From positions 1 to 41,525 of IMG/VR virus record IMGVR_UViG_3300042923_000582: a DNA stretch of 41,525 nt; one strand, 5' to 3'. The translations under genes were made by a program, and so were the position numbers. Of this stretch, positions 25,157 through 32,506 are shown one piece after another. The notes below the pieces were generated by a model, which did no database searches, was not told the DNA's origin, and saw only the letters and a program-made list of their open reading frames with translations. This stretch comes from a virus. How positions within the stretch are numbered: position 1 is the stretch's first letter; each line of letters starts with the position of its first letter.

Positions 25157-25181
25157 ATAACAAAAACTATATGAGGTGTAT

Positions 25182-25835
25182 ATGAAAGATATATTAATAT
25201 TCGGCTGTGGCGGTCATGCAAAGGTAATAACAGATATTATCGAAAAACAAGGCACATACAATATAGCAGGTTTCGTTGATGCATATAATGCGCCGGGCGA
25301 AACATTTATAGGCTATCCGGTTTTGGGTAGCGAATCCGATATATTGGATATAGGTATAAACTTGGGGATAGTTGCTATAGGTGATAATTGGACAAGAAGT
25401 AAAGTTGTCAATAAGGTATTAAGTATAAATAGTCAATTTAAATTTGTAACTGCCATTCATCCTTTTACTTCCATTGCAAAAGATGTTGTTGTAGGTGATG
25501 GCACTGTAATAATGGCAGGAAGTATAATAAATAGCAGTACGAAAATAGGAAATCATTGTATAATTAATACTAATTCGTCAATAGACCACGATAATACAAT
25601 AAATGATTTTTCGAGCATTGCACCAGGAGCAATAACAGGTGGAAATGTAAATATCGGAGAGTTCACATCAATTTCTCTAGGCGCAAAAATAAAACATGGC
25701 ATCACAATAGGCGAACATAGTGTAATAGGAGCAGGAAGCGTTGTACTCAAAAATGTAGACAGTAACGTTGTGCAATATGGTGTACCTGCCAAACATATAA
25801 GAAATAGAAATAAAGGTGATAAAAGTTTAGGGTAG
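25182..25835 (+). CDS. NeuD/PglD-like sugar O-acetyltransferase
   Basis: This is a 217-residue protein. The N-terminal PglD domain opens KDILIFGCGGHAKVITDII, a nucleotide-sugar-binding fold. From about residue 95 a left-handed beta-helix of hexapeptide repeats runs to the end, with SSIDHDNTI carrying the usual catalytic His. Proteins of this family transfer acetyl from acetyl-CoA to sialic-acid-like or amino sugars of capsules and glycans. It is not a virion or lysis gene. With its own promoter and terminator it looks like a cargo gene that changes the host surface, perhaps blocking superinfection. ATG 25182 follows GAGGTG; the GTG at 25176 lies inside that ribosome site. Confidence 0.88.
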   Translation: MKDILIFGCGGHAKVITDIIEKQGTYNIAGFVDAYNAPGETFIGYPVLGSESDILDIGINLGIVAIGDNWTRSKVVNKVLSINSQFKFVTAIHPFTSIAKDVVVGDGTVIMAGSIINSSTKIGNHCIINTNSSIDHDNTINDFSSIAPGAITGGNVNIGEFTSISLGAKIKHGITIGEHSVIGAGSVVLKNVDSNVVQYGVPAKHIRNRNKGDKSLG

Positions 25836-25860
25836 CTTCGGCTATCCTTTTTTTATTTTT
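25830..25860 (+). terminator. terminator of the neuD-like gene
   Basis: GGGTAGC (25830-25836) pairs with GCTATCC (25841-25847) around TTCG, followed by TTTTTTTATTTTT. The gene's TAG is in the stem, as in the sister terminator at 25122, whose left arm is identical. Confidence 0.88.
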
Positions 25861-26134
25861 TGGTACTTGCAAATACTTAACATGGTTTACATAGTATGTA
25901 ATATAACTGTAAAGCAACTATAAAATCAGTATGCTTCGAAGCTACAACAAGGAGAAAAGCAAGGTCGAGGGGGCAAGCTTTGGCTAAATAAAGGCAATAA
26001 GATATATTATACCATTTCCCCCATGTAAACCCGGACAATGAAGTCTTTGGCTCCGTCCCGGGCGACTTCTAATATATCCCCTAGCAAAAGCAAAACACTA
26101 TCGTTAGCCTTACATAAAAAGGGGGTAGAGCAAA
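25861..26134 (+). other. structured non-coding region ahead of the transfer genes (candidate oriT or regulatory region)
   Basis: No credible gene lies in these 274 bases. There are several symmetric elements: TTACATAGTATGTAA (25887-25901), GCTTCGAAGC (25933-25942), a GGGGG...CCCCC pair enclosing about 26 AT-rich bases, and near 26030-26070 a GC-rich nest where GAAGTC pairs with GACTTC around CCGTCCCGGG. A sigma-A-like promoter reads TTGGCT (25980-25985), 17 bases, TATATT (26003-26008), and could drive the ATPase gene. Density of symmetry and position beside a coupling-protein-like gene suggest a transfer origin, but no nick site is recognised. Confidence 0.45.
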
Positions 26135-27409
26135 TTGGATCTCGCTATATTAATCACATTCACTGGCATAGGCTACTATATCTTATCAGAGTTTTTCGCC
26201 AAAGAGCAAACATTAGAAGATTACCTAAGGCACGGCATTAATACTGGTCAAACTGGTACTGGCAAATCTGTTAAATGCAGAAATGATATACTTGAATTTA
26301 AAAAATATGGTGGCTGTTTATTTATAGACCAACATGGAGTAGATAGCGAAAAGCTTTTAAATGAAATACCATTGGAAGATGTAGAAAGAACTATATATAT
26401 TAATCCCGCTGATTTAGAAATGCCTATAGGAATTAGTGTTTTTAGTGATGAAAAAGGGGAGCTGCAGAACGAATTATCTGTTAACCAATTGATATCCATA
26501 TTTGAAGCTTTATGGTCAAATAGCATCGGGCCACAAACTGAAGATTTAATAAGAATGTCTAGTTTATCCATAGTAGAGCAGGAAATATCAACTTTACTCG
26601 AAGCTTATTTAATGCTTACAAGTGAACAGTACAGAAATAGTATTAATGTAAAAAATGAAGTAGCGAAAGATTTTTGGGAAAATTGTTTTCCTGATTTTAA
26701 ATCAACTCAATTAGCGCCGCCCTTAAATAAATTTCGTGCATTAATTGCTCCAACTGTGCATAGGCTTGTACTATGTCAGAGTAAACCGAAACTAGACCTA
26801 CTTCAAGCCATGGACGAAGGTAAAATAATTATCTGTAATTTTTCTCAAAAGTTAGGGGATAAAACAAGTCAACTTTTATCAGCTATCACCGTAAGCAAAA
26901 TACAACTATTAGGCTTTACTCGAGATGAAAATAGTAAACCTTTCGGAGTATTCCTTGATGAATTTCAAAATTATGTTATAAGAACATTTTCCAAGTTTCT
27001 TTCAGAAGCACGAAAATTCAATATGCCTATGAGTTTATATCACCAATATAATTCGCAGGTTCCTGATTGGTTACTTGATGCCATTGCCGGAAATTGCGGA
27101 AGTAGATATAGCTTTAGAGTCGGAGAATTAGATGCAGCATACCTAGCTAAATTTCTAAAACCTTTTACTGAAGATGATTTAATTAATTTGCCTAATTTCA
27201 AGTATATTGCAAAGCGACTAGTCAATGGCAAAAAGGAAAAGCTTGCAATCAAGTATAAGGCTCCAAAACCTCCAAAGGTGTATGGTTATGGCGAAGAGAT
27301 TAAAAAACGTTCTAGGGAACTTTACGGCACACCAAGGGGCAAAGTTGAGGAAGATATTAAAAATAGGATTAATGCAAAAACGAAAAGCACAAATGAGGGG
27401 GAATTTTAA
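26135..27409 (+). CDS. VirD4/HerA-type DNA-transfer ATPase (coupling protein-like)
   Basis: This is a 424-residue protein. One N-terminal membrane helix (about residues 2-20) precedes a RecA-like motor with Walker A GQTGTGKS (about 39-46), Walker B-like GVFLDEFQNY (about 271-280), and a C-terminal region of the TraG/TraD-like kind (LINLPNFKYIAKRL). Such hexameric ATPases pump plasmid DNA in conjugation. It is not the packaging motor, which is terL. The start is TTG at 26135 behind GGGGGTAG; no ATG suits better. It is coupled to the next gene as TAATG. Neither a relaxase nor other mating genes are visible, so any transfer would need a helper. Confidence 0.75.
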   Translation: MDLAILITFTGIGYYILSEFFAKEQTLEDYLRHGINTGQTGTGKSVKCRNDILEFKKYGGCLFIDQHGVDSEKLLNEIPLEDVERTIYINPADLEMPIGISVFSDEKGELQNELSVNQLISIFEALWSNSIGPQTEDLIRMSSLSIVEQEISTLLEAYLMLTSEQYRNSINVKNEVAKDFWENCFPDFKSTQLAPPLNKFRALIAPTVHRLVLCQSKPKLDLLQAMDEGKIIICNFSQKLGDKTSQLLSAITVSKIQLLGFTRDENSKPFGVFLDEFQNYVIRTFSKFLSEARKFNMPMSLYHQYNSQVPDWLLDAIAGNCGSRYSFRVGELDAAYLAKFLKPFTEDDLINLPNFKYIAKRLVNGKKEKLAIKYKAPKPPKVYGYGEEIKKRSRELYGTPRGKVEEDIKNRINAKTKSTNEGEF

Positions 27410-28167
27410 TGATACTGACTAAAAGAGATAAGCAAATGTTAATCACACTTCATAACAATAGGTTTATGAATACCGACCAAATTGCGGAGCTCTTCTATAA
27501 ATATGACGAAGAAGGCAAAGAAAATAAACTATATAGAGATATTGCCTTAAGACGGCTCCGCAAAATGAAAGCTAAAGAAAACTTATTGATACTTGAATAT
27601 ATTCCCTATGCTAGAGAGAGTAAAGTCTATACCCTAGCCGAAAAAGGCTCAATCATGGTATGCAGTTGGCTTAATAAAAAATATGAAAGCTTTACATCTA
27701 AAAATGATATGCTCCAAATAGGCTTAGTCGAACACAGTTTAGAGATAAATGATATATACATACGATTACTGGCATTATGCCAAAAATACAATTATGAAAT
27801 GCTGGCTTTCTTAGTTGAAAGACACAATCGCAGAACAGTAAAGCATAATGGAATGAATATGACTTTTCAACCCGATATGTTTATGATAATAAAAAATAGA
27901 TCCACACAAAAAGGCAAAGCCTATTATGTTGAATTAGACCGAAACACCGAAGCACCTAAGAAGTTTGCACAAAAGGTTATAGCCTATGAATCCTTTTATC
28001 ATGCTGATGTGTTTAAAGAGGATTGGAACAATCAAAACATAAGACCTGACATATTAGTATTAACCGATAATAAAAATCGTTCTGAAAGGCTACAAAGTGC
28101 AATCAAGAGTAGTTTGAAATGGGTATTTATAGAGAAGGATAATATAGAAATAATATTTAGGGGGTAG
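27409..28167 (+). CDS. replication-relaxation (MobC-like) family protein
   Basis: This is a 252-residue protein. A winged-helix N-terminus (LTKRDKQMLITLHNNRFM, TDQIAELF, LRRLRKMK) is followed by a nuclease-like alpha/beta domain with QPDMFMII and YYVELDRNTE (about 154-180), where Asp, Glu and Lys are arranged as in restriction-like folds. The order of domains matches the replication-relaxation proteins of Gram-positive plasmids and integrative elements, which often lie beside a HerA/FtsK-like ATPase as here. It may bind or process the neighbouring non-coding DNA in transfer or replication. Confidence 0.7.
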   Translation: MILTKRDKQMLITLHNNRFMNTDQIAELFYKYDEEGKENKLYRDIALRRLRKMKAKENLLILEYIPYARESKVYTLAEKGSIMVCSWLNKKYESFTSKNDMLQIGLVEHSLEINDIYIRLLALCQKYNYEMLAFLVERHNRRTVKHNGMNMTFQPDMFMIIKNRSTQKGKAYYVELDRNTEAPKKFAQKVIAYESFYHADVFKEDWNNQNIRPDILVLTDNKNRSERLQSAIKSSLKWVFIEKDNIEIIFRG

Positions 28168-28169
28168 CT

Positions 28170-28331
28170 ATGGATATAAAGCATAAAGATTGTAAAATAA
28201 CCGATATTAAATTAGATAGTCATGTACAAATAGATTGGGTAAAGAATGAATATAAAAGCGATTTTAAATATACTGATGTGAAAGTAAATGATATGAGGAA
28301 AGACAAACCAATTAAAGAATTTCAAATATAA
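28170..28331 (+). CDS. 53-residue protein of unknown function
   Basis: The protein begins MDIKHKDCKITDIKLDSHVQ and is charged and beta-prone, with 11 Lys and 10 Asp. GGGGGTAGCT precedes the ATG. It is the last gene of the rightward transfer-like operon and runs into a terminator. No family is recognised. Confidence 0.6.
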   Translation: MDIKHKDCKITDIKLDSHVQIDWVKNEYKSDFKYTDVKVNDMRKDKPIKEFQI

Positions 28332-28358
28332 AAGGGACTATATAAAGTCCCTTCTTTT
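28331..28358. terminator. bidirectional terminator between convergent operons
   Basis: GGGACT (28334-28339) pairs with AGTCCC (28346-28351) around ATATAA. A tracts upstream and T tracts downstream let it work both ways. It separates the rightward transfer genes from the leftward maintenance operon. Confidence 0.8.
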
Positions 28359-28376
28359 ATTGCTTTATGCCACTAT

Positions 28377-28565
28377 TTATTTTTCAATGACAGTTACCAT
28401 TTCACCATCAATTACCACGGCATCACCTTTGTAAATTTGTTTCGCCCCTTTGCATGTAGGTATAATGATTGAATTTCCAATCCTTCTAATAGTCTTTGAC
28501 TTACTTGGCAAATTTTCTAAAATCTTCAAGATGTTATTTTCACTGCCTGTAAATTGTATTTCCAT
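28377..28565 (-). CDS. 62-residue protein, weakly AbrB/MazE-like
   Basis: The segment IRRIGNSIIIPTCKG followed by DAVVIDGEMVTV resembles the GNS-x-x-x-x-IP core of AbrB/MazE swapped-hairpin DNA-binding proteins, but the fit is partial. A strong GGAGGTAAAGGGA precedes the ATG. It is last in the leftward operon. If it is MazE-like it could be a partner of the distant MazF-like protein at 31940, which has no adjacent antitoxin; this is speculation. Confidence 0.5.
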   Translation of the reverse strand: MEIQFTGSENNILKILENLPSKSKTIRRIGNSIIIPTCKGAKQIYKGDAVVIDGEMVTVIEK

Positions 28566-28596
28566 TCCCTTTACCTCCCTTATATAATACTAGGGG

Positions 28597-28869
28597 TTAC
28601 ACTAAGCCTTCTTGAACTCCATCTTTGGTTTCGAAATCTCCATATGGATGTGAAATTTCTGATACCTGGAAAAATCTACTACCGCAACTTGCACAAAGAT
28701 ATGTGTCAATATCATATTTTTCATGTATATATGTTTCATCTGTACTAATATAGCTACTACATTCATTAGGGCAATCTAGCATTCCACTATCTGCACATGG
28801 TTTGTTTCCACTTGTTTTTAAATAACCAACAACTTCACTCAAACTTTTTCCTACTAAAACAATTTTCAT
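28597..28869 (-). CDS. Cys-rich protein of unknown function
   Basis: This protein has 90 residues from the ATG at 28869; the upstream in-frame ATG overlaps the ribosome site. Four to six Cys occur as CADSGMLDCPNEC and CASCG, suggesting a zinc knuckle. The start lies 2 bases past the stop of the RHH gene, so the two are coupled. Confidence 0.6.
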   Translation of the reverse strand: MKIVLVGKSLSEVVGYLKTSGNKPCADSGMLDCPNECSSYISTDETYIHEKYDIDTYLCASCGSRFFQVSEISHPYGDFETKDGVQEGLV

Positions 28870-28871
28870 CC

Positions 28872-29030
28872 CTACTTCCTCCATAATACTTTTTTATTCC
28901 TATCCTCTACAGACTTACGGATATATTCACTCACATTCTCTTGCTCTATCTCCGCAGCCTTTTCCGTTTCTTCCTTTAGCTTTGGCGATACCCTTACATC
29001 AGGAAACTTCTCTGTTTTAACTCTTACCAT
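28872..29030 (-). CDS. small ribbon-helix-helix-like protein
   Basis: This protein has 52 residues: MVRVKTEKFPDVRVSPKLKE, then an acidic helix and SEYIRKSVEDRNKK. The pattern of a beta strand (VRVS), helix, turn and second helix (VSEYIRKSV) is that of CopG/Arc-like DNA-binding proteins. GAGGTGAACA precedes the ATG, which overlaps the end of the yopX-like gene by 14 bases. Confidence 0.6.
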   Translation of the reverse strand: MVRVKTEKFPDVRVSPKLKEETEKAAEIEQENVSEYIRKSVEDRNKKVLWRK

Positions 29031-29418
29031 TGTTCACCTCGTAGATGTTTCCTATTACTTCTAATTCTTGCACATCATCCCATAAATATATTCCATCTTC
29101 TCCGTCTAAACTTTCTAGCATAAATGATGCACATTCAAATTTTACTATCCCTATAAATCCATCGTGTTTTGACCCTATTAAATCGCAAGTGCGTTTGGCT
29201 ATATCTCCCTCATATATCTCTACACCATTCTTATCTTTTAAGCCTGTGTATTCTCCAAGAGTTTCTATTTTAATAATATTATGTTTCGCAAAAGCCAATG
29301 CACCATTATCTTTACTGGGTAATATGAACCAATAATTAATGCCATCAAAATAATACCCATTGCTGTAAATCCATTTGTCATATACATTATCTTTCGCTCT
29401 GAATTTAATTTCCCTCAT
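29017..29418 (-). CDS. YopX-family protein
   Basis: This 133-residue protein begins REIKFRAKDNVYDKWIYSNG and contains YTGLKDKNGVEIYEGDI, both hallmarks of the YopX family of Firmicute phages and plasmids. The family has a beta-rich fold and no established biochemical role. It is first in the distal part of the leftward operon, with its own promoter upstream and GGAGGTATTT before the ATG. Confidence 0.88.
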   Translation of the reverse strand: MREIKFRAKDNVYDKWIYSNGYYFDGINYWFILPSKDNGALAFAKHNIIKIETLGEYTGLKDKNGVEIYEGDIAKRTCDLIGSKHDGFIGIVKFECASFMLESLDGEDGIYLWDDVQELEVIGNIYEVNNGKS

Positions 29419-29503: not shown

Positions 29504-29887
29504 CTATTTTATTTCAATATTTTTCCTAAAATAATCTATCATATATCTAACAAACGCACTTTCATTTTCAAACTTTTTAGCCGTTTCCTTTATATATTTC
29601 TTCTGCGACCTTGTAACATTTGCTACAAGTCTTTCGTCTACCAATTCAGATTTAACAGGGGTTTCAACAGTGTACTTATTAGTGACATTGTTAGTGTACT
29701 GTGTAGTGCCTTGTTCATTGTCATTGTTACTACTTTGTTCACTACCTTTGTTATTGTCTTGTTCATCATTCTGTGCATTGTCTTTGTCATTATCTTGCTT
29801 AGTATTAAGTTCACTATCTTTCTGAAAAAAAATGCCGACCCCTTGCCCTGGCTTTATCCTCTCCGATATATTAACCTTGCTCGCCAC
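29504..29887 (-). CDS. RHH partition partner (ParB-like centromere binder)
   Basis: This is a 127-residue protein. About residues 22-72 are a low-complexity run of Asp, Asn, Gln, Ser and Thr. The last 55 residues (LVANVTRSQKKYIKETAKKF, then SAFVRYMIDYFRK) read as a ribbon-helix-helix DNA-binding domain. Small ParA proteins of type Ib usually pair with such RHH proteins in place of HTH ParB. The start overlaps the end of parA by 17 bases. It would bind a centromere and load onto ParA. The N-terminal extension is unusual; it may be disordered and promote clustering. Confidence 0.7.
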   Translation of the reverse strand: MASKVNISERIKPGQGVGIFFQKDSELNTKQDNDKDNAQNDEQDNNKGSEQSSNNDNEQGTTQYTNNVTNKYTVETPVKSELVDERLVANVTRSQKKYIKETAKKFENESAFVRYMIDYFRKNIEIK

Positions 29888-30608
29888 GATCTATTACCTC
29901 CTGTGCTAATCTTTCGTATAATTCACCTAACTCTTTATCAATATCACATACTGGCAAACCTTCAACAGTTGAATCTTGGAAAGCAACTCTATCAGGTATA
30001 ACCACATTAAAAGCTAATCCAGTACCTTGAATGATTTCTAACACTTGTTTATTATGGTTATTTTTCTTGAACATTGTCGGCAACAAGCCTAGTATTTTTA
30101 ACTTAGGATTATAAGCCCTACATTCCTCTATTGTATTCTGCAACAAGCCGAAACCTTCCCAACATAGGAATTGAGTTTGCATCGGTACTACTACCCCATC
30201 AGAAGCCACCAAAGCATTTATAGAAAGGTTTCCTAATGACGGAGGGCAATCTATAAGGATATAGTCGAAGAAGTCTATAACTGGCTTTAAACAGTTTTTA
30301 AGGGTATCGTGTTTGCCTTTCAACTCCAACTCTGCAGCCGCCAAATTAATATTGCTTGGTACAAAGAAGAAATTCTCATTGTCTGTGATTATATCTTTTC
30401 TTATGTCATACCCATTCAACACATTGTATATTGTGGTTCCCATCAGATGCGGTTCAAACTTCATGCTGATTGTTAAACTGCTCTGTGCATCAAAGTCTAT
30501 CAGTAGTACTTTTTTACCTTTGTTGATTAATGCCCATCCTAAGTTTAATGTTGTAGTGCTTTTACCTATGCCACCCTTTTGATTAATGATTGATATTACC
30601 TTTGCCAT
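29871..30608 (-). CDS. parA: ParA partition ATPase (type Ib-like)
   Basis: This is a 245-residue protein. Deviant Walker A KGGIGKST (about residues 11-18), switch I-like DFDAQSSLT (about 39-47) and Walker B ILIDCPPS (about 118-125) identify it. There is no N-terminal HTH, so autoregulation is probably by the partner protein. It positions the plasmid prophage at division by ATP-dependent nucleoid binding. It lies directly downstream of rep and overlaps its partner gene. Presence of a partition system with no integrase is strong support for a plasmid-like prophage. Confidence 0.93.
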   Translation of the reverse strand: MAKVISIINQKGGIGKSTTTLNLGWALINKGKKVLLIDFDAQSSLTISMKFEPHLMGTTIYNVLNGYDIRKDIITDNENFFFVPSNINLAAAELELKGKHDTLKNCLKPVIDFFDYILIDCPPSLGNLSINALVASDGVVVPMQTQFLCWEGFGLLQNTIEECRAYNPKLKILGLLPTMFKKNNHNKQVLEIIQGTGLAFNVVIPDRVAFQDSTVEGLPVCDIDKELGELYERLAQEVIDRGEQG

Positions 30609-30708: not shown

Positions 30709-31353
30709 TTAAACATCAATGAATTTATTAATCTCATAATCTGCTTTTTCTGTTACTAATGCTTTCTCAAAGTAGTTCTTGAATGATTTGATATTTCCTG
30801 CTCTGTATTGGTCTATTACCCTATCGTAAACCAATAAAACTCTATCCTCTGGTAACTTCATTTTGTCTGAATAATGTCTGAGCAAATCATCTATCGTGTC
30901 AAACTCCATCAGATCAGATTTATTATTACACTCATTATTATTAATATCATTTATTAGTAGTATCGGATTTTCCTCATATGGCTTTTCCTTATCGGGAAAT
31001 TCCGTAAGTGGCTTTTCGTCCATATCCGGCTTTTCCGTAAATGGAGTTTCATAAACCTTACTTTCCCAATACAGTATTTTACCCTTATCGTCTTTTACTG
31101 GATATTTTTCCATATAGCAATATTCTTTAAGTTCTTTTAGTCCGGCATAAACACTATCTCTACCATCTTTAGACTTTTTTATTAAATGTTCTACTATAAC
31201 AGTCCAATCATCAGGCTTGCTTAATAAATATGATAATATTCCTTTAGCTTTCCAACTCAATCTATCATCAGATAAAAATTCTTTATTCATAATTACATAT
31301 GGATTATCTTTATTTTTAACTACCCTAACGATACTTTTATCTTCTTTTCCCAA
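30709..31353 (-). CDS. plasmid replication initiator-like protein
   Basis: This is a 214-residue protein. The N-terminal winged-helix region (IMNKEFLSDDRLSWKAKGIL, YLLSKPDDWTV, then SKDGRDSVYAGLKEL) is of the initiator/replisome-organiser kind found in Firmicute plasmids and phages. Residues 100-132 are ExPxx pentapeptides, and the last 70 are helical. It should bind the origin, probably the iterons inside its own gene. The start is TTG, with its ribosome site (GAGAGG) buried in a hairpin, so expression is kept low. It stands at the head of the rep-parA-partner unit. Confidence 0.72.
   Translation of the reverse strand: MGKEDKSIVRVVKNKDNPYVIMNKEFLSDDRLSWKAKGILSYLLSKPDDWTVIVEHLIKKSKDGRDSVYAGLKELKEYCYMEKYPVKDDKGKILYWESKVYETPFTEKPDMDEKPLTEFPDKEKPYEENPILLINDINNNECNNKSDLMEFDTIDDLLRHYSDKMKLPEDRVLLVYDRVIDQYRAGNIKSFKNYFEKALVTEKADYEINKFIDV
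30965..31050. repeat. iteron-like array inside rep
   Basis: Six copies of a unit starting GG[A/C]NTTTC begin at 30965, 30980, 30995, 31010, 31028 and 31043, spaced 15, 15, 15, 18 and 15 bases. On the rep strand the best copies read GAAAAGCC. In protein they give ExPxx repeats. Iterons in the middle of the initiator gene are known from lambda O and RepA_N plasmids, so this is a candidate origin. Confidence 0.6.
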
Positions 31354-31887: not shown

Positions 31888-31917
31888 TTGACAACGGGTA
31901 TTATAATGGTATATTAT
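31888..31917 (+). promoter_or_regulatory. promoter of the MazF-helical repeat-peptide operon
   Basis: TTGACA (31888-31893) is a perfect -35; TATATT (31910-31915) or TATTAT (31912-31917) gives spacing of 16 or 18. The region upstream to 31784 is very AT-rich with two related TATAC-AATAA elements (31806 and 31856), possible XRE sites. Confidence 0.75.
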
Positions 31918-31939
31918 GGTTTTGGGGGTGTTCAGCAGC

Positions 31940-32506
31940 ATGAGAAAAAGAATAAGACGCGGAGATATATGGTTCATAAATACACCGGAAGGAATAGGGT
32001 GTGAACAGCAAGGCGATAGAGTTGCATTGGTAATAAGTCCGGATATATGCCAAGAAAAATCAGACAATGTAATCGTCTTACTGGGGACAAAACAAGAGAA
32101 AAAAGTAGACCTTCAAACTCAATTTGTAGTAAATACGGATTGGGGTTTGAAATATGATACAGTTTTCATGGCAGAGCAAATCAAAAGTGTAGATAGACAA
32201 AGATTTATGATGTACTGTACTCACTTAGATAATTTCAAGATGCAGGAAGCTCATAAAGCAATGTGTGTAGCGCAAGGATTACTTGAACCTATCAATAATA
32301 AATACATCAAATTACTAATCGACTACATAAATATGCTAGATCAAGAATTAATAACATATCAATCAGCTTCTGTGCAAAAATTGCGAGAAGAAAAAATCAT
32401 TGAGTTAAAAGAATACTGTGAAGAATACAGATATGACTACAGAGTGTTTCTCGAGAGGTACTTGTTGTTTAAGGAGGTCGAGAATATTGAAAGAATTTAC
32501 AGCTAG
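31940..32506 (+). CDS. MazF/PemK-like endoribonuclease with helical C-terminal extension
   Basis: This is a 188-residue protein. Residues 1-110 match MazF: RRGDIWFINTPEGIGCEQQG, DRVALVIS (catalytic Arg), LLGTKQ (catalytic Thr) and FMAEQIKSVDRQRF. Such enzymes cut mRNA at short motifs. Residues 110-188 are helical and charged, well beyond the usual 110-120 length of MazF, with no antitoxin gene adjoining. It is first in an operon with a helical-repeat protein and a secreted repeat peptide, and overlaps the second gene, so the extension may dock that protein. ATG 31940 follows GGGGGTG. Confidence 0.8.
   Translation: MRKRIRRGDIWFINTPEGIGCEQQGDRVALVISPDICQEKSDNVIVLLGTKQEKKVDLQTQFVVNTDWGLKYDTVFMAEQIKSVDRQRFMMYCTHLDNFKMQEAHKAMCVAQGLLEPINNKYIKLLIDYINMLDQELITYQSASVQKLREEKIIELKEYCEEYRYDYRVFLERYLLFKEVENIERIYS

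Follow-up and report, generated by a model that had tools for sequence, protein, structure and literature searches.

A candidate mobilisation cassette with a VirD4-type ATPase and a MOBC-family Replic_Relax protein on a small phage-plasmid

Phages and conjugative plasmids are commonly seen as separate routes of gene transfer. The window analysed here, the whole of a 41,525-base IMG/VR virus record (IMGVR_UViG_3300042923_000582), encodes a VirD4-like ATPase next to a Replic_Relax protein, and the question that this locus raises is whether the pair could give a small phage genome access to the second route as well as the first.

The phage-plasmid and its cassette

The window begins and ends with the same 123 bases, and the assembly is therefore taken to be circular. 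Its virion and lysis genes (terminase large subunit, portal, holin and a glucosaminidase endolysin) are accompanied by genes for ParA, a replication-initiator-like protein, SSB, an ERF recombinase and a phage replisome organiser. By gene content, with virion genes together with replication and partition genes on a circular molecule, it is identified as a phage-plasmid. The larger of its two viral relatives (L002) has its own ParA and a RepA_N replication protein (RepA_N match 7e-22), pointing to a plasmid state, and we take the RepA_N protein to mean that this phage-plasmid group probably has a Bacillota host. The window terminase is 60% identical to that of an unannotated human-faecal phage record. 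No match to mating-pore families was found among the window genes scanned, which bears out, for those genes, the first-pass annotation's statement that none are present. Two genes give the plasmid-state and replicon context:

29871..30608, minus strand: ParA partition ATPase (plasmid-state context)
30709..31353, minus strand: HTH_36 protein with matches to PHROGs of phage/plasmid replication initiation (replicon context)

A PemK/MazF-type toxin gene lies near this partition region (31916-32506; 1.2e-18), with 74% DNA identity in the relatives.

The first-pass annotation had placed the ATPase and Replic_Relax genes correctly, within a unit at 25861-28331. Alignment with the relatives showed the cassette to be wider than this, extending from 25826 to 28364 and taking in a conserved non-coding stretch. 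Its features are as follows:

25829..25848, plus strand: intrinsic terminator of the upstream gene and left edge of the cassette; similarity to the relatives begins at about 25826
25849..26134, no strand: conserved non-coding stretch; candidate oriT and candidate promoter/operator region
26135..27409, plus strand: VirD4/TraG-type ATPase of 424 aa, putative coupling protein; all-alpha insertion in the NBD (residues 109-213)
27409..28167, plus strand: Replic_Relax protein (PF13814; MOBC relaxase family), 252 aa; predicted winged helix and PD-(D/E)XK-like core
28170..28331, plus strand: small conserved protein of 53 aa, part of the cassette
28332..28353, plus strand: terminator-like hairpin closing the cassette

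The two main genes overlap by one base (27409). The cassette is common to both viral relatives (39,872 and 38,600 bases) at approximately 87% DNA identity. Similarity to the 39,872-base record spans window positions 25826 to 28364, while the 38,600-base record (L003) aligns over 25826 to 28166 and again over 28157-28368, Replic_Relax and the 53-aa ORF being separated by an inserted GP88-type gene (L003 8405-9052). About as many terminator-like hairpins are expected by chance, so those at the two ends back the cassette boundaries only in combination with the alignment.

Most head and tail genes of the two relatives have lost DNA-level alignment to the window, and in both the same new lysin (amidase by Pfam) replaces the window's endolysin and acetyltransferase. 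The ParA and Rep of L002 also differ from those of the window, which L003 keeps. As the cassette is retained while neighbouring genes differ, it appears to be a unit that persists through the exchange of lysis and maintenance genes. Across the three phages, the ATPase and Replic_Relax genes are under purifying selection, with dN/dS of 0.06-0.13 and 0.016-0.03, respectively.

The acetyltransferase, of PglD hexapeptide type, occupies 25176-25835 between the endolysin and the cassette; in both relatives the lysin adjoins the cassette. Between the cassette and ParA are small minus-strand ORFs and a YopX-family gene (28377-28884, 29017-29418), most of whose length has no DNA-level match in the two relatives.

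A VirD4/TraG-type ATPase and its MOBC-family partner

The ATPase gene starts with a TTG codon preceded by AAGGGGG, and its product carries a Walker A motif (GQTGTGKS, residues 38-45) and an LDEF motif (274-277). The AlphaFold2 model (pLDDT 86) is a RecA-type motor into which helices are inserted at residues 109-213. Comparison of this model by VIA-align placed TrwB at the top (Z 28.4, 360 residues, rmsd 3.9), ahead of VirB4 (27.1), DndH-C (26.9), DotL (24.7), HerA (at most 22.2) and FtsK (at most 16.7). Foldseek alone ranked one HerA-NurA entry slightly ahead of TrwB by E-value, but with a lower TM-score, and a profile search against PDB sequences again gave TrwB as the best match (1.4e-7), with HerA proteins ranking lower. 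The features of a T4CP fold, namely a RecA-type NBD, Walker A and B, an all-alpha insertion and the TrwB fold, are thus all found in the model.

At the family level, the window ATPase scores 19.3 bits against Pfam TraG-D_C, below the cut-off of 22, and has no FtsK_SpoIIIE Pfam match. Four of its homologues (L018, L026, L019, L005) exceed the Pfam cut-offs of T4CP models. The HAS-type HerA barrel is absent before the motor, where only short helices and one strand are found, and the start of Walker A at residue 38 leaves no room for it. The first-pass annotation had named placement by HMMs in a non-transfer clade as the result that would overturn a transfer role; what emerged was TrwB as the nearest fold, no HerA barrel and T4CP models as the Pfam matches of the relatives. 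Its N-terminal membrane helix fared less clearly, as there is one hydrophobic stretch (residues 3-21) but the mean hydropathy is borderline (1.61) and the segment is poorly modelled (pLDDT 37-44).

Close relatives of the ATPase are few: the two viral records, followed by VirD4-like proteins with 31-36% identity, mostly from Patescibacteria genomes, and a Sulfitobacter plasmid protein. Many Patescibacteria genomes (L018-L097) carry a long VirD4-like ATPase, mostly of about 770-950 aa. Patescibacteria were considered as a source of the window gene. Their ATPases are 770-950 aa in most loci, the neighbourhoods are of housekeeping type where read, and the six genomes searched (five of them from the Patescibacteria loci) lack a PF13814 match; they are therefore a distant relative family and not a likely donor. 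In Bacillus phage G (gp155-gp156, L007), a protein noted as VirB-like adjoins a 26% homologue of the window ATPase.

The partner protein matches PF13814 with 56.2 bits (cut-off 25.3). This family constitutes the MobC superfamily in CONJscan and is paired with VirD4 in streptococcal IMEs (Coluzzi et al., PMC5357655). Since PF13814 is equated there with MOBC relaxases, the earlier statement that no relaxase is seen in this genome is incorrect. MOBC relaxases are related to PD-(D/E)XK restriction endonucleases, and for TraX of pAD1 a winged helix is reported, together with an active site of restriction-endonuclease type (2025 review, PMC12857230).

The Replic_Relax model (mean pLDDT 58) has a winged-helix-like N-terminus, followed by a helix, strands, a helix and a strand. 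This element order models as expected for a PD-(D/E)XK core, to be read with the caution that this pLDDT calls for. VIA fold comparison of residues 1-85 returned MarR-type regulators (Z at most 6.4), and that of residues 91-252 returned mostly PD-(D/E)XK nucleases in its top rows (Z at most 6.4); Foldseek found no match to the model below E 0.001. Four residues, P155, D156, E175 and K189, are invariant in 31/31 aligned Replic_Relax sequences. In the model, D156 lies before strand 157-163, E175 at the end of strand 169-177 and K189 in the next helix. The position of the ExK lysine is occupied by aspartate in the window (E175-L-D177) and by glutamine in the Bacillales set, and K189 sits where it would be expected if the catalytic lysine had migrated, a step that we infer from the model.

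A candidate oriT, helper mobilisation and the alternatives

A non-coding stretch of approximately 255 bp ahead of the operon is strongly conserved; over 25860-26110 it contains no indels and has 96.4% and 93.6% identity to the two relatives. Its divergence of about 4-6% is below the synonymous-site divergence of either gene in the same phages (dS 0.84-0.89 for the ATPase and 0.39-0.42 for Replic_Relax). A 15-bp palindrome, TTACATAGTATGTAA, is present at 25887-25901; the number of matches expected in the window, if one mismatch is tolerated, is 0.04. There is also a conserved 9-bp inverted repeat (25884-25892 / 26023-26031), and inverted repeats with 9-base arms number two in the window sequence, against a mean of 0.10 in dinucleotide shuffles. 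The candidate oriT showed no clear direct repeats, and outside the two relatives no copy of it was found in phages, in plasmids or among other viral contigs.

Two coding explanations for this conservation were rejected. A minus-strand 53-aa ORF loses its stop in L003 and shows several amino-acid changes among few substitutions, and a plus-strand upstream ORF shares the ATPase reading frame in L003, though not in the window. An RNA element was also rejected: Rfam gave no match at gathering scores, and the RNA fold (z-score 0.33) was no better than shuffles, for which reasons a role at the DNA level is preferred. On its sequence, the stretch is thus read as a DNA cis element, with oriT as its candidate role and an operator/promoter as the other possibility.

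Our preferred reading, with a probability of roughly 0.6, is that the cassette is a mobilisation module of the CloDF13 type, comprising a coupling protein and a MOBC relaxase with no pore, that is carried on a phage-plasmid and mobilisable in trans. In the plasmid state, the winged helix of Replic_Relax would bind the conserved non-coding stretch before the operon, and its PD-(D/E)XK-like centre would nick that stretch, the putative oriT. The VirD4-type ATPase, anchored via its N-terminal helix, would then dock to a mating channel supplied by a co-resident conjugative element, pass the nicked DNA to it and pump the DNA through. A helper would be needed, as it is for CloDF13 (PMC7431656), because no mating-pore gene was found. 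With such a helper, the cassette would probably let a mating channel carry the phage-plasmid between cells, besides transfer in virions. The first-pass annotation had already raised mobilisation by a helper, and this remains the best-supported reading given the TrwB-like fold of the ATPase and the T4CP Pfam matches of its relatives, though the annotation had missed that Replic_Relax is a relaxase family.

Three other explanations were weighed. The one that survives best, although unlikely, is that the pair serves replication or segregation in the plasmid state, Replic_Relax nicking the origin and the ATPase pumping or decatenating plasmid DNA. It would fit the PHROG label phrog_9381 ("replication initiation by nicking"), the ParA and Rep genes close by, and the reading of similar Bacillus phage pairs as plasmid replication/segregation genes (PMC9658697, PMC9703825). 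However, the same cassette stands beside a different Rep and ParA in L002, with its RepA_N protein (7e-22), and the window encodes its own replisome organiser and SSB. FtsK-type pairs also occur in the integrase-annotated phages GBSV1 and SpaA1, and since several Bacillales records are annotated with integrases, the pair does not appear tied to plasmid maintenance. The plasmid-replication alternative offered in the first-pass annotation is weakened by the RepA_N of L002 and the pairs in integrase-annotated phages.

Slightly less probable again is a nuclease-coupled pumping ATPase for exclusion or anti-competitor defence, comparable to HerA-DUF4297 or HerA-NurA, in which Replic_Relax would be the nuclease. 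In its favour, the model of the partner resembles a PD-(D/E)XK-like nuclease, the window ATPase is related in fold to HerA defence ATPases, and PADLOC reported a weak mad8 match (21.9 bits). Yet Walker A at residue 38 is not preceded by the HerA N-terminal barrel, TrwB is clearly nearer than any HerA protein (Z 28.4 against at most 22.2), Replic_Relax has a predicted winged helix and is a member of a relaxase family of plasmids, and the non-coding stretch is conserved like a cis element.

Least probable of the three is a function in lytic-cycle DNA processing or ejection, kept for its benefit to infection, since, although the cassette directly follows the lysis genes on the same strand and other phages place similar pairs in the same position, a terminator lies between the cassette and the late genes, the 0305phi8-36 island with its relaxase-translocase operon is non-essential for growth according to a review (PMC4113786), and a similar pair is found on a plasmid that has genes for conjugal transfer and, over the stretch shown, none for virions.

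Related pairs in other phages and plasmids

Helper mobilisation of the window phage-plasmid has its closest parallel by description in CloDF13, which is mobilisable without a mating pore and has its own coupling protein and MOBC relaxase in its MobB-MobC region (MOBC1) (PMC7431656). The carrier here differs in being a phage-plasmid, probably of a Bacillota host, and its ATPase is small, at 424 aa, with one membrane helix of borderline hydropathy. The likeness is drawn from that description, as no MobC gene turned up among the ORFs of the CloDF13 record. The replication-relaxation protein of the enterococcal plasmid pAM373 matches PF13814, as does that of the window, and its gene lies near one for a TraM-recognition T4CP on a plasmid typed MOBC. 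In contrast to the window, the enterococcal plasmid has conjugation genes and a T4CP of 737 aa, and the two PF13814 proteins have very little pairwise similarity: comparisons with pAM373 TraX by BLAST and hhalign were non-significant or covered the N-terminal part only.

Among phages, Tyrovirus Thrax (gp17-gp18) has a T4SS-type protein adjoining a replication-relaxation protein in a temperate phage; its authors suggested a plasmid origin for the pair and read it as plasmid maintenance (PMC9703825). These are phages of 160-170 kb, and the likeness is drawn from their published description. The jumbo phage 0305phi8-36 is described, in a review citing Pathria 2012 (PMC4113786), as having an operon of a DNA relaxase (listed first there), a translocase and a membrane anchor that is dispensable for growth. 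HerA/NurA, HerA-DUF4297 and TdtA of ICETh1, which acts in DNA donation (PMC5365140), likewise combine a nuclease with an adjacent pumping ATPase from the FtsK-HerA superfamily; the HerA proteins have an N-terminal domain ahead of the motor that is missing from the window ATPase, and a lower fold score.

The first-pass annotation held that such a pair is rare in phages of this type. This was too strong, as pairs of an FtsK-type ATPase and Replic_Relax are common in Bacillales prophages. A search with the Bacillales Replic_Relax alignment yielded at least 127 viral contigs, and a Walker-A ATPase lay directly upstream of Replic_Relax in 81/82 loci read, some of which were re-fetches of the same contig. 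Annotated pairs include those of SpaA1, GBSV1, 268TH007 and a Paenibacillus JNUCC32 phage-plasmid (with ParA close by), as well as Mangrovibacillus and B. subtilis plasmids with phage genes. They resemble the window in gene order, in genes that usually overlap or abut and in position after the lysis genes. In contrast to the window protein, their ATPase is of FtsK/SpoIIIE type where scanned or annotated (FtsK_SpoIIIE 3e-19 in the Paenibacillus protein), and in the loci read its Walker A lies at residue 126-216, compared with 38 in the window protein. Upstream conservation in these FtsK-type modules is mixed, one Paenibacillus pair having 98% identity there against 92-93% in the genes and others showing no such difference. 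Two contigs whose names carry the same sample number as L002 (3300042923), L130 and L146, contain a Bacillales-type pair.

FtsK-type ATPase and Replic_Relax pairs beside lysis genes are therefore already known, as is a phage operon of relaxase and translocase, and the related two-gene kits in Bacillus phages have gone mostly unrecognised; within our partial coverage of the literature, we found no paper naming the Bacillales phage pairs as mobilisation modules. The window differs in its VirD4-type ATPase, its small phage-plasmid setting and its conserved cis element. Within the P1-like group, plasmids that descend from phage-plasmids were found to have relaxase genes or oriT, but just two phage-plasmids did (PMC10879196). 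With a cassette under purifying selection and related pairs in more than 100 Bacillales-type viral contigs, conjugal mobilisation of phage genomes would become directly testable. In the most far-reaching reading, which we consider somewhat short of an even chance, apparently intact small Bacillota phage-plasmids maintain a cassette of VirD4, MOBC and oriT and would have two horizontal routes, virions and helper-driven conjugation, as would many Bacillales phages with FtsK-type pairs; conjugal mobilisability would then be common, though so far overlooked, among temperate phages.

Plasmids carrying the ATPase homologue were typed as non-mobilizable in 52/56 cases, as were 104/148 of those with the Bacillales Replic_Relax type, which suggests that typing tools may miss mobilisation cassettes such as that of the window. 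The B. licheniformis plasmid L006 (27.7 kb), also typed non-mobilizable, has the same gene order as the window, T4CP then Replic_Relax, within an operon that includes genes named conjugal transfer. Its single run of genes comprises the ATPase, Replic_Relax, three conjugal transfer genes, a large ATP-binding protein and a transglycosylase, and is a possible conjugation system overlooked by typing.
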